64,000 nucleotides of DNA from Armatimonadota bacterium (GTDB lineage Bacteria > Armatimonadota > Zipacnadia > Zipacnadales > JABUFB01): NCBI GenBank assembly GCA_013314775.1, contig JABUFB010000006.1, forward strand, positions 62,001 to 126,000, in the 5' to 3' direction. Shown one piece after another: positions 2,285 through 33,577 of the stretch (position 1 is the first letter of the stretch; every line of letters begins with the position of its first letter). The position numbers and the translations under genes are program-made. The notes below the pieces were generated by a model. It saw only the letters and a list, made by a program, of their open reading frames with translations. It made no database searches and was not told the origin of the DNA.

Positions 2285-2312
2285 TCCGGTCAGTCTAGTC
2301 TGCGCCCTCTTT

Positions 2313-2520
2313 CCAGGAGCATTGGTCTCCTGGAATGCGTGTCGCCTGAGGCCGACTTCGCGTTCAGCGTGCCCTTCGCCCTGAGCCGTTGCGGACGGAT
2401 CCATCCGGAGCCTGACGACACAGGGCAAGGCCCCATTACCACCGTCCCCGCACGCCTGCCACACACTAGGCAGGCACCCATCCCACAAGATCGATGGTCC
2501 TACCCCTCTTTCTCCCAAGC
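2313..2520 (+). repeat. dispersed intergenic repeat, copy A
   Basis: This stretch shares blocks with the region 12351-12663 (opposite strand) and with 31895-32090. It opens with CCAGGAGCA, the edge of a 9-bp hairpin (311-319 with 327-335 of the 2 kb line, i.e. 2311-2335). It then carries GGCCGACTTCGCGTTCAGCG followed by TGCCCTTCGCCCTGAGCC, nearly identical to copy B. Its right-hand block CATCCCACAAGATCGATGG recurs in copy C as CATCCTGCAAGACCGATGG. It abuts the -35 box at 2521. No coding potential was recognised. Confidence 0.75.
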
Positions 2521-2549
2521 TTGACAGCCGTGCCCACTTTCTGTATGTT
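2521..2549 (+). promoter_or_regulatory. sigma70-like promoter for the prepilin/ECF operon
   Basis: TTGACA (2521-2526), a 17-bp spacer and TATGTT (2544-2549), directly at the right edge of repeat copy A and about 45 bp upstream of the prepilin-like start codon. Confidence 0.75.
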
Positions 2550-12321: not shown

Positions 12322-12350
12322 ATGTTACCACAGGTGCCGGGGTCGGGCAA
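12322..12350 (-). promoter_or_regulatory. sigma70-like promoter for the lipoprotein/methyltransferase pair
   Basis: On the minus strand, TTGCCC (12350-12345), a 17-bp spacer and TAACAT (12327-12322). It abuts the edge of repeat copy B. Confidence 0.65.
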
Positions 12351-12663
12351 CCGGCATGACCCGCGGTGCTGTGGGATGCGTGCCGGCCTCGCTTGTGTCC
12401 GGCGTCCGGTGCCCCCGGTGTCGGGGCCGTGCCGTGTGCTGTCAGGCGCCGGAAGGGCGGTCGGACCCGGTCCGCGGGGAAGGGCCTGTCGCCACCCTTC
12501 GGAGGCTCACGGCGTATCGGGGGCGGCAATCGGGATGCTTCCGCCCCCGGCCAAAGGCCATCGCCCGCTCCGCGTGCCGTGCGGCAACGGCTCAGGGCGA
12601 GGGGCACGCTGAACGCGAAGTCGGCCCCAGCCGGCAGGCGTGCCACAGAACCGTTGCTCCTGG
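12351..12663 (-). repeat. dispersed intergenic repeat, copy B (longest)
   Basis: Read on the minus strand it starts with CCAGGAGCA (12663) and carries GGCCGACTTCGCGTTCAGCG and the adjoining TGCCCCTCGCCCTGAGCCG shared with copy A. A GC-rich middle block (CCGGGGGCGGAAGC, GATTGCCGCCCC, GGGTGGCGACAGGC) is shared with copy C at 31935-32010. It ends with a GCATCCCACA block shared with A and C, next to the promoter at 12350. In the other direction the ddl promoter lies only 19 bp from its left edge. Confidence 0.75.
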
Positions 12664-12681
12664 GACAACCGTGAGCCAGTT

Positions 12682-12710
12682 TTGCCAAAGCCCGCGCAGC
12701 GTGCTATCAT
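12682..12710 (+). promoter_or_regulatory. sigma70-like promoter for ddl
   Basis: TTGCCA (12682-12687), a 17-bp spacer and TATCAT (12705-12710), 60 bp upstream of the ddl start. Confidence 0.7.
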
Positions 12711-12770: not shown

Positions 12771-13892
12771 ATGTCGTCACAGCGATCCAACGGCCGCCTG
12801 CATGTCGCCGTGTTGTTTGGTGGCCGGTCCGGAGAACACGAAGTGTCTGTTGCCTCCGCGAGGTCAGTTGTCAGCAATCTTGATCCCGAGAAATACGAGG
12901 TCACCCTCATCGGAATCACCAAGACAGGGCAGTGGGTCTTGCCCGAGGACAGTCAGCGGGCACTCACTGAAGGTCCGGGAAGCGTCGCGGCGCTTCCGGT
13001 CCACGCTCTCGCCGACTACGGCGCAGGCATTGTGCGCCCGGGTGAAAACGGCCTCACTCGACTGAACCAGGTGGACGTGGTCTTCCCCGTGCTGCACGGC
13101 ACGTACGGGGAGGACGGCACCGTTCAGGGGCTACTGGAGCTGGCCGGTCTGCCCTATGTCGGGGCGGGCGTCCTGGGCAGCGCAGCGGGAATGGATAAGG
13201 TCATCATGAAGACCCTGTTCCGCGCCGAAGGACTGCAGAGCGCCGACGCTGTTCATTTCAAGCGCCGCGACTGGCAGGCTGACCGGCAGGGCATCCTGGC
13301 AAAAATAGCGGACGAAATCGGATTCCCGTGTTTCGTGAAGCCTGCGAACCTTGGCTCCAGCGTGGGCATCAGCAAAGCAAAGACGCCGGAAGATCTGGAG
13401 CCGGCAATCGATCTTGCGGCCGAGTTCGATCTGAAGGTGCTGGTGGAACAGTCGGTAGAGAACGCCCGCGAAATCGAGTGCAGCGTCCTGGGCAATGACG
13501 AGCCGCGCGCTTCGGTGCTCGGGGAAATCATTCCTTCTCGCGAGTTCTATTCATACGAAGCGAAATACGTGGATGACGCGTCAGGGCAGATCATCCCGGC
13601 TGACCTGCCAAAGGACGTGACCGAGGAGATTCGCGACATGGCCGTGCGCGCCTTCAAGGCTGTGGACTGCGCGGGCCTGGCGCGCGTCGACTTCCTCGTG
13701 CGCCGCGACGACAATGAGGTCTACATCTCCGAGATCAACACTATCCCCGGCTTCACCCAGATCTCCATGTACCCGAAGCTCTGGGAGGCGTCCGGCCTGC
13801 CGTACCCGAAACTCCTGGACGAATTGATTCGTCTGGCGCTGGAGCGACACGCGGAGCGAGCCAGCCTTCGGACGAGTTACTCTACGGGGTAG
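12771..13892 (+). CDS. ddl: D-alanine--D-alanine ligase
   Basis: A 373-residue ATP-grasp enzyme that makes the D-Ala-D-Ala dipeptide for peptidoglycan. Evident motifs are VAVLFGGRSGEHEVSVAS at the N-terminus, VFPVLHGTYGEDGTVQGLLE, the ATP-binding lysine region FPCFVKPANLGSSVGISKA, and the C-terminal metal/ATP signature EINTIPGFTQ. The length and the Phe/Tyr context (REFYSYEAKYVD) fit the long DdlA/VanA-related form. The residue C-terminal to the omega loop is consistent with a D-Ala rather than D-Lac ligase, though this cannot be settled by eye. Transcribed alone, with a hairpin right after its stop. Confidence 0.95.
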   Translation: MSSQRSNGRLHVAVLFGGRSGEHEVSVASARSVVSNLDPEKYEVTLIGITKTGQWVLPEDSQRALTEGPGSVAALPVHALADYGAGIVRPGENGLTRLNQVDVVFPVLHGTYGEDGTVQGLLELAGLPYVGAGVLGSAAGMDKVIMKTLFRAEGLQSADAVHFKRRDWQADRQGILAKIADEIGFPCFVKPANLGSSVGISKAKTPEDLEPAIDLAAEFDLKVLVEQSVENAREIECSVLGNDEPRASVLGEIIPSREFYSYEAKYVDDASGQIIPADLPKDVTEEIRDMAVRAFKAVDCAGLARVDFLVRRDDNEVYISEINTIPGFTQISMYPKLWEASGLPYPKLLDELIRLALERHAERASLRTSYSTG

Positions 13893-24892: not shown

Positions 24893-25255
24893 ATGACGAA
24901 GGGCTACGTGTATGCCTTGCTGGCTCTTGCCCTGATCGTGGCCATGGTGCTGGCTGGCTGCCCCAAGAAGCCGGAGCCCGCTCCGACGCCCGGTCCGCCG
25001 CCCGATGCCGAAATGATGATGATGCAGGAAGGTGCCCAGCCGCCGGCCGAAGGCGAAGAGGCTGCCAAGGGCGAAGAGGCTGCTGAGGGCGAAGAAGCTG
25101 CCGAAGGCGAAGAGGCCGAAGGCGAAGAAGCTGCCGAAGGCGAAGAGGCCGAAGGCGAAGAGGCCGAAGGCGAGAAAGCTGCCGAGGGCGAAGAGGCCCC
25201 CGCAGAGGGCGAGGATGCCAAAGTCCCCGCTCCGGACGACAAGAAGGCCGAGTAA
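24893..25255 (+). CDS. lipoprotein with acidic EGEEA repeats
   Basis: A 120-residue exported lipoprotein. MTKGYVYALLALALIVAMVL followed by AGCPKK gives lipobox LAGC with Cys23 lipidated. A proline-rich spacer and four methionines (MMMM, 41-44) precede about ten near-identical EGEEA/EGEEAA units (about residues 52-108). The mature protein is therefore a strongly acidic, disordered tail, with a few lysines in variant units. It has GGGAGG upstream, its own promoter and a strong terminator, so it is probably well expressed. Possible roles are surface charge, metal binding or substrate of the upstream radical SAM/PqqD system; all are inference. Confidence 0.85.
   Translation: MTKGYVYALLALALIVAMVLAGCPKKPEPAPTPGPPPDAEMMMMQEGAQPPAEGEEAAKGEEAAEGEEAAEGEEAEGEEAAEGEEAEGEEAEGEKAAEGEEAPAEGEDAKVPAPDDKKAE
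25048..25212 (+). repeat. in-frame 15-18 bp tandem repeats (GCCGAAGGCGAAGAG)
   Basis: Units based on GCCGAAGGCGAAGAG, with or without an extra GCC/GCT codon, encode the EGEEA array. Unit length changes only by whole codons, as expected for selection on the reading frame with slippage at the DNA level. Confidence 0.85.
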
Positions 25256-31894: not shown

Positions 31895-32090
31895 GTGGGC
31901 TTTTTGCCTCCAAGCCCGCGGAGTCGGCGACAGCCTGTCGCCGGGGCGGAAGCCCCCGTATTGCCGCCCCGCGATGCATCTCGAGCCCCTAACGGGGGCG
32001 ACAGGCGACGGTTTCATCCGAAGGCCGACAGCACACGAGGCAGCCTCGCATCCTGCAAGACCGATGGTCTCGCCCTGCGGCTTGGTTATG
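31895..32090 (+). repeat. dispersed intergenic repeat, copy C, interrupted from its promoter by an IS
   Basis: The block GCCGGGGCGGAAGC, then GTATTGCCGCCCC and GGGGGCGACAGGC, matches the middle of copy B. The end block CATCCTGCAAGACCGATGG matches copy A. Before the IS inserted, this edge would have lain directly upstream of the promoter now at 33549. The left boundary is approximate; 31647-31894 holds nothing I can name apart from the leader of the upstream lipoprotein gene. Confidence 0.7.
32074..32090 (+). repeat. left target-site duplication of the IS (17 bp)
   Basis: CCTGCGGCTTGGTTATG, identical to 33531-33547. Confidence 0.9.
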
Positions 32091-33530
32091 TGTAAGCGCA
32101 ACGTGATAATGTCCGGTTGGTGCAAAGTAGAAATGTCCGGTGGTAGTGTCGTCGTCGTCGCGCGGCGAACTATCCGGGATGGAACTACTCATGAGCGTAA
32201 AAGAGCGTGACTGTCTAAGATCGTTTCGCAGTTGGCAGGACCCGGCGGTGGTGCCGGCAAGTTGACCCAGGCCCAGGCCGCGGACTTGCTGGGGTGCACT
32301 GAGCGCCATGTGCGGCGTCTGGTGCGGCGCTATGAGCACGAAGGCGACGCCGGCCTTGTTCACAAGTCTCGCGGCAGGCCGTCGAATCGCTGTCTGCCCC
32401 AGGAGTTCCGGGAACAGGTCATGGTCCAGGTGCGCAAGCATTACCGCGATTTCGGCCCGACCCTTGCTGCGGAGATGCTTGCCGAACGCCACGGCCTATC
32501 GGTCAGTCGCGAGACCCTGCGCCAGTGGATGATCGCCGAAGAGCTGTGGAAGCCCAAGCGCCGCAAGGCCGTTTATCGACAGCGGCGCCCGCGCAGGGAG
32601 TGCTTTGGCGAACTGGTGCAGATCGACACCTCCGAGCATGACTGGTTTGAAGGACGGGGCGAGAGCGCGGTGCTCATCACCCTCATCGACGACGCCACCA
32701 GTCGCGTCACTATGCGCTTCTTTGAAGCGGACGACACGCAGGCCAACATGACGATCCTGCGCGACTACATCGCCCTGCATGGCCGCCCTATGGCTTTCTA
32801 CGGCGACAAGGCAAGCCATTTCCGGGTCAACCGCCCGGCCAGCGTGGAAGAGCAACTGGAAGGCCTGGAGCCCGAGACCCAGATCGGGCGCGCCCTGCGC
32901 GAATTGGACATCACGTGGTTCACGGCCCATTCTCCCCAGGCCAAGGGACGGGTGGAACGCAGCTTCGACACCGCTCAGGACCGGCTGGTCAAACTGATGC
33001 GCTTGGACAACATCCGCACCATAGAAGAAGCCAATCGCTTCCTGCAGGAGCGCTACATGCCCCAATTCAATGAACGCTTCACGGTTCCGCCCGCCTGCGA
33101 TACGGACGCCCACCGTACTTGCGAGGGCCTGGACCTGGACGCCATCTTCAGCCACCAGGAAGAGCGCGTGGTCACGCGGGACTACACGATCCGGTTCAAG
33201 AACCAGCGCTACCAGATCAAAAAAGAAAGCGCCGCGCCGGGCCTAGTGCAAAGCAAGCTGATCGTGGAACAGCGCCTGGACGGTAGCATCTGGCTGCGAT
33301 GGCGGGATCAGTACTTGCAGTTCGTGACGATAACCCCCACCCCGACGGGCGCCGCCGCTGCCCTTCCGGTCGGGCTACGCCCTCCCTACAGGGCAGCGGC
33401 CAAAGGCACAGCCGTCACCCCGAAGGCAGACCACCCGTGGAAGAAACCCTACAAAGGAGACTCCCGACCCCAACGGCAGTAGGACATTTCTACTTTGCAC
33501 AAAACCGGACATTTCTACTTTGCGTTGACA
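32091..33530 (+). mobile_element. insertion sequence, ISNCY-like, 1440 bp, with 17-bp target duplication
   Basis: The element is bounded by a perfect 17-bp direct repeat and has related inverted ends (TGTAAGCGCAAC at the left; TGTCAACGCAAA read inward from the right). Each end carries two copies of a 19-bp motif based on GCAAAGTAGAAATGTCCGG: left at 32098-32116 and 32122-32140, right at 33482-33498 and 33505-33523 (inverted). The copies are spaced about 24 bp apart and are probable transposase-binding sites. One rve-type transposase frame fills the interior. The intact duplication implies a recent insertion. Confidence 0.9.
32191..33482 (+). pseudogene. ISNCY-like DDE transposase with N-terminal frameshift
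   Basis: The main frame (from about 32214 to 33482) encodes an N-terminal helix-turn-helix (KLTQAQAADLLGCTERHVRR), a second HTH (LSVSRETLRQWMIAEELWKP) and an rve integrase core. The core's catalytic triad is visible as LVQIDTSEHD, FYGDKASHF and KGRVERSFD. The expected start ATG 32191 (MSVKERDC) is in a different frame. Relatives, as I remember them, read MSVKERDxLKIVSQ continuously, so one base is missing near 32215-32217. A TTG at 32232 could still start a slightly shortened protein. It is otherwise full length (about 430 residues), and its stop codon overlaps the inner right-end motif. Confidence 0.75.
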
Positions 33531-33547
33531 CCTGCGGCTTGGTTATG
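33531..33547 (+). repeat. right target-site duplication of the IS (17 bp)
   Basis: Exact copy of 32074-32090, ending one base before the -35 box of the promoter at 33549. Confidence 0.9.
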
Positions 33548-33548
33548 C

Positions 33549-33577
33549 TTGTCATCAGCCTGTGACCGCGCTATACT
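33549..33577 (+). promoter_or_regulatory. sigma70-like promoter next to the IS right end
   Basis: TTGTCA (33549-33554), a 17-bp spacer and TATACT (33572-33577), 78 bp upstream of the next start codon. The IS ends just upstream and leaves the promoter core intact. Confidence 0.75.

Follow-up and report, generated by a model that had tools for sequence, protein, structure and literature searches.

Promoter-Directed Transposition in Bacteria

So far, only a few Mutator-like families are on record for promoter-directed transposition in bacteria. Prokaryotic Mutator-like transposases and their p-MULT elements, which have inverted repeats (IRs) of 18-39 bp and 8-9-bp target repeats, were described by Guerillot et al. 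(2014; PMC3942029); insertions of TnGBS/ISLre2 and the ISKra4 group were shown to lie 13-17 bp upstream of sigmaA -35 boxes, those of ISKra4 members with near-perfect IRs in both orientations, and contact between the transposase and the polymerase initiation complex was proposed. The TnGBS ICEs and ISLre2 (p-MULT3), which lie 15-17 bp upstream of -35 boxes between 8-9-bp repeats, are autonomous and found mainly in Firmicutes, and most of them insert with the right IR towards the promoter; the ISKra4 elements (p-MULT4) encode a transposase, end in GGGT... and keep a spacing of about 16 nt. The word MITE is absent from that paper. Correia elements and other bacterial MITEs form another precedent, being short, gene-less, bounded by terminal inverted repeats (TIRs), intergenic and often upstream of genes. 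For a fixed distance from a promoter there is also yeast Ty3, by analogy only (PMC3942029), although it is a retrotransposon that uses an unrelated enzyme and RNA polymerase III promoters.

The elements analyzed here came to light in a 64,000-nucleotide stretch of DNA, hereafter the window (G000:C6:62001-126000), of the 6.12-Mb draft genome of an Armatimonadota bacterium (G000; 37 contigs). They share the short, gene-less, TIR-bounded form of the Correia elements, but those carry their own promoters (PMC10969869), whereas the promoter here is the host's, at a set distance beyond the element. With the ISKra4 group they share 9-bp repeats, an IR core that in one ISKra4 element is equally far from the tip, and a place just upstream of a sigma70/sigmaA -35 box in both orientations. 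Their TIRs (about 35 bp) and repeats (9 bp) fall within the ranges published for p-MULT4 (18-39 and 8-9 bp), and their spacing, which peaks at 17-18 nt, is slightly longer than the published 13-17 bp. Unlike ISKra4 elements, they measure 191-387 bp, have no gene and end in CCAGG....

A Genus-Restricted Family of Mobile Elements

The first-pass annotation had noticed that three intergenic regions of the window, A, B and C, share sequence blocks, and had taken them for a dispersed family that might be mobile. The family is real: local alignment scores for the three pairs (A/B 101, A/C 42, B/C 77) all exceeded every shuffle, whose maxima were 30-32, and A and B have in common an 80-bp block (2313-2392 and 12584-12663) that is 84% identical in inverted orientation. 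Used as queries against the whole genome, A and B produced 44 and 59 matches (E<=1), and a 313-nt consensus, built iteratively from the copies, produced 89 in G000 and 90 in the genome of a sister species (G001). Fifty-three copies in G000 are confident and 69 were catalogued when single-ended, degraded and weak ones are included; the sister species holds more. Two further genomes of the same family gave no convincing match, and a TIR model run over 291 genomes of the phylum matched in G000 and G001 only. The family is genus-restricted.

The CATCC..CA block that had been seen at the end of A, B and C proved to be one TIR of about 35 bp, CCAGGAGCATCGGTTTTGTGGGATGCGTGCCGGC, present at the two ends in inverted orientation; its outer 9 bp are CCAGGAGCA and its inner part, the core, is TCGGTTTTGTGGGATGC. 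A TIR profile search found paired TIRs of about 35 bp in 22 copies, whose lengths of 191-387 bp are too short for a transposase gene, and none is present. Insertion creates a 9-bp target-site duplication, for which the summed score was 113; with left and right flanks re-paired as a null, the score averaged -22.5 and never exceeded 21. Orthologous loci in the sister species have nucleotide identities of mostly 82-92% and provide precise empty sites, e.g., for the G000 copies at C5:264005, C10:778, C10:101900, C10:412335, C11:258212 and C16:114342; at the place of C5:264005 the sister species reads CTACATCAGGGCCTCG. TIRs, duplications and empty sites together bear out the suspicion of mobility, and A, B and C belong to a MITE family whose members moved after the two species had diverged. 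Weak element-like sequence survives in the sister species at a few of the compared loci (L168, L172, L173 and L174), and some insertions may, therefore, be older than others.

The palindromic look of the MITE comes from its TIRs and internal hairpins. The earlier idea of a conserved structured RNA, or riboregulator, did not survive: the covariation term of the consensus fold was unfavourable (+1.21), only 2 of 22 pairs were compensatory, and no Rfam family matched in the window.

The interior of the MITE, CCTGTAGCCGGGGGCGGAAGCCCC, is shared at C13:72461-73380 (L119:1462-2381) by tandem GC-rich hairpin units of about 237-284 bp without TIRs, arrays that were left out of the 53 confident copies, and it may be that the MITE took up a hairpin repeat of separate origin. 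The interior is also amplified in tandem in the sister species, with a 268-bp period and 95% match (L110:2002-2660 and L111; G001:C848 and C561), and these regions also hold a 30-bp period near one TIR.

The Copies in the Window

Table 1. Coordinates of MITE copies A, B and C and their neighbouring features within the window.
Feature	Position	Strand	Details
MITE copy A, 191 bp	2313..2503	+	TIRs 2313-2347 (23.0 bits) and 2469-2503 (30.1 bits), TIR profile
Left target-site duplication of A, CCCTCTTTC	2305..2313	.	9/9 identical to 2504-2512
Right target-site duplication of A, CCCTCTTTC	2504..2512	.	perfect match to left
Sigma70-like promoter TTGACA-N17-TATGTT	2521..2549	+	-35 starts 17 nt outside A tip; faces prepilin-like gene at 2594
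MITE copy B, 310 bp	12354..12663	-	TIRs 12354-12388 and 12629-12663
Imperfect 9-bp duplication of B, GGGCAACCG / GGACAACCG	12345-12353 / 12663-12671
Promoter TTGCCA-N17-TATCAT	12682..12710	+	TTGCCA at 12682, TATCAT at 12705; 18 nt outside left-arm end of B
MITE copy C, left-truncated	31903..32073	+	right TIR about 32039-32073
ISNCY-family insertion between C and its promoter	32074..33547	+	transposase 32262-33482, NF033594, 421 bits
Promoter TTGTCA-N17-TATACT of copy C	33549..33577	+	18 nt from TIR tip, IS ignored

Measured from the tip of the TIR to where the -35 box begins, the distances are 17, 18 and 18 nt for A, B and C (Table 1). The promoter that the first-pass annotation had placed at 2521 for A stands, as does its conjecture that the promoter of C was originally the one at 33549. 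The ISNCY element that now separates the two has on either side a 17-bp direct repeat, CCTGCGGCTTGGTTATG (32074-32090 and 33531-33547), which is unusually long, and the distance for C is counted across the repeat that this insertion left. For B the annotation had chosen the wrong side: its minus-strand promoter at 12350 stands just 4 nt off the opposite edge, and the one at 17-18 nt is on the plus strand at 12682, facing the D-Ala-D-Ala ligase gene (12771-13892). The near-equal distance from end block to -35 box that had been remarked upon in A and C was the key clue. Elsewhere in the window, at 25027-25223, a coding repeat with an 18-bp period (GAAGGCGAAGAGGCTGCC units) produces an acidic Ala/Glu/Gly-rich stretch of protein.

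Position Relative to Genes and Promoters

Statistics were drawn from 709 kb around the copies and an 800-kb spread of other regions, in which gene starts, from a simple codon-usage gene caller, are approximate. Nearly all confident copies are intergenic, and they are not spread evenly over the types of intergenic region: 27 of the 53 are in tandem regions, 26 in divergent and none in convergent, against 58, 29 and 13% of the intergenic bases elsewhere in the 800 kb (P=6.6e-4 for the zero convergent copies; p=0.002 for the divergent excess). Promoters were predicted with an E. coli-like matrix for sigma70-like sequences. With a score above 9, a predicted -35 box was located 14-24 nt outside an edge in 35/53 copies, compared to 2.1% of random positions, which were likewise taken from intergenic DNA only; with the stricter score above 12, the figures were 28/53 and 0.6%. 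The offset peaks sharply, at 17 nt (16 edges) and 18 nt (10 edges). Predicted promoters that read outward cluster with their -35 boxes 6-23 nt from the TIR tip and occur almost nowhere else, and those that read inward are nearly absent. Copies in the sister species have the same pattern, with a -35 box at 9-22 nt for 11 of 18 edges. The claim that the family abuts promoters is upheld, and more sharply than the three copies had allowed to be seen.

Two further claims fared less well. The same edge had been thought always to face the promoter; across 38 confidently oriented edges the left arm did so in 21 cases and the right arm in 17 (p=0.63), and either end can face it. It had also been suggested that the module travels with promoters, but several of the sister species' empty sites already have the predicted promoter, without the element. 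The promoters are those of the host genes, situated outside the element, and a promoter carried by the element itself can be rejected on the same evidence. Among the targets checked by family models are ddl, ffh, ileS, uvrA and glyQ.

A Candidate Transposase

The gene-less MITE would need an enzyme from elsewhere, and two intact ISKra4-family transposases (NF033572) reside in G000, at C11:53896-55119 and C8:225470-226660. Automatic inverted-repeat searches around these genes produced no convincing ends; the ends were found by eye through comparison of the two copies and then checked. The element on C8 has ends GGGTCTGACC.../GGGTCGGACTCGATTTTGTTGG and a 9-bp duplication with one mismatch (AGCAGCCGG/AGAAGCCGG), and is situated 16 nt upstream of a predicted promoter, TTGACC-N18-TATAAT. 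The copy on C11 (left flank L249:3550-3760) is found where a long gene has its 3' end. At 17 nt beyond the left tip of this copy there is a TTGACA but no good -10, a hint that a -35 sequence alone may sometimes be enough for targeting.

The resident IRs match the MITE TIR weakly (p about 0.003). A scan of the ISKra4 loci with the TIR profile produced no significant match, and the core is visible only in a fixed-register comparison. In its outer 9 bp (CCAGGAGCA) the MITE departs from the ISKra4 ends examined, GGGTGCACG. A closer likeness came from a multi-copy ISKra4 element in a Vicinamibacterales genome, whose right IR is GGGTGCACGTCAGATTTGTGAGATGCC. Over its inner 17 nt (positions 10-26) this IR agrees with the MITE core, TCGGTTTTGTGGGATGC, in the same register, a score reached by 0/300,000 random positions, its significance being somewhat overstated as the match was sought after several ISKra4 IRs had been inspected. 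Several of the Vicinamibacterales copies have 9-bp repeats and a -35-like hexamer starting with TTG at 16 nt, few of which reach the promoter score; in these and in the resident element the spacing is 16 nt, 1-2 nt short of that of the MITE. At least 12 copies of one ISKra4 element are present in Vicinamibacterales OY282382.1 (L284-L299, L309), and this element could be used as a model autonomous partner.

An autonomous ISKra4 partner of the MITE would share the ends CCAGGAGCATCGGTTTTGTGGGATGCG. In the regions around the copies there was no pair of TIRs 0.5-5 kb apart, and hence no autonomous element with a complete MITE TIR; nor was one found in the 291 genomes of the phylum or, by exact pattern, in GTDB or IMG/VR.

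Proposed Mechanism and Alternatives

The IRs, repeats and spacing of the MITE fit the published behaviour of ISKra4, and together with the core match they led us to infer an ISKra4-type transposase acting in trans; being gene-less, the MITE would be a candidate substrate of that enzyme and not an ISKra4 insertion sequence. We consider it highly probable that an ISKra4-type transposase moves the MITE in trans and places it 17-18 nt upstream of existing sigma70-like promoters in either orientation. In such a scheme the transposase (p-MULT4, Mutator superfamily) would bind the inner TIR core and capture a promoter, probably through bound RNA polymerase holoenzyme, as in the published TnGBS model, or through the promoter DNA itself. 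The element would then be joined with a 9-bp stagger at about -53/-45, which would leave the promoter and the coding region intact, and the near symmetry of the two TIRs would account for unoriented insertion. Any effect on the promoter, be it lost upstream activation or read-through, would be a by-product.

A different promoter-targeting transposase, of the TnGBS/ISLre2 type (p-MULT3) or an undescribed one, could be imagined in its place, since p-MULT3 elements also have 9-bp repeats and a 15-17-bp spacing (PMC3942029) and no autonomous partner of the MITE was found. We think this unlikely, as most p-MULT3 insertions are oriented and the family is mainly one of Firmicutes (PMC3942029), whereas the TIR core matches ISKra4 IRs and ISKra4 transposases are resident. 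Bolder, and a shade more doubtful still, is the proposal that a transposase lineage with its own 17-18-nt spacing recognises promoter-bound RNA polymerase, and that the host let the elements accumulate on housekeeping promoters as insulators or tuners; if true, this would amount to a genome-wide, transposon-built layer of promoter architecture.

Could the spacing instead reflect usefulness? A regulatory module, retained as an upstream activator site, insulator or terminator, its spacing fixed by benefit to the downstream promoter, would agree with the constant distance, the strong promoters, the housekeeping targets, the internal hairpins and the fact that A, as RNA, folds better than its shuffles (z -3.9). 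It is, however, hard to reconcile with random orientation, with variation in length and interior and decayed copies, with lineage-specific presence at orthologous promoters, or with the lack of covariation and a copy B whose fold, as DNA, is not beyond what chance would give (z -1.27), and we hold it to be very unlikely. Least credible, and strongly disfavoured, is random insertion followed by purifying selection, with harmless intergenic copies left near promoters by chance. Selection alone would indeed confine nearly all confident copies to intergenic DNA, yet it should tolerate convergent regions, where none of the 53 is found, and it offers no route to a peak at 17-18 nt, where an intergenic null predicts 2% of copies near a promoter and 66% were found.

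Significance

The first-pass annotation knew of no named element like this one. That is still true of the MITE itself, and a search of the open-access full-text literature found no earlier report of a genus-restricted, promoter-targeting MITE at such copy number in Armatimonadota; its insertion behaviour, on the other hand, has been published for TnGBS, ISLre2 and ISKra4 (PMC3942029). The insertion rule is already known, and what seems new is a MITE that obeys it. A gene-less element of less than 400 bp with equal precision reduces the problem to two ends of about 35 bp and a transposase supplied in trans, and with such a small element the question of whether polymerase or DNA is recognised becomes directly testable. 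Certain bacterial transposons seem to seek out the machinery of transcription start, a rule that has rarely been noticed. In an uncultured lineage such insertions are a natural promoter-mapping tag, and elements of this kind may be an overlooked source of variation in upstream regions.
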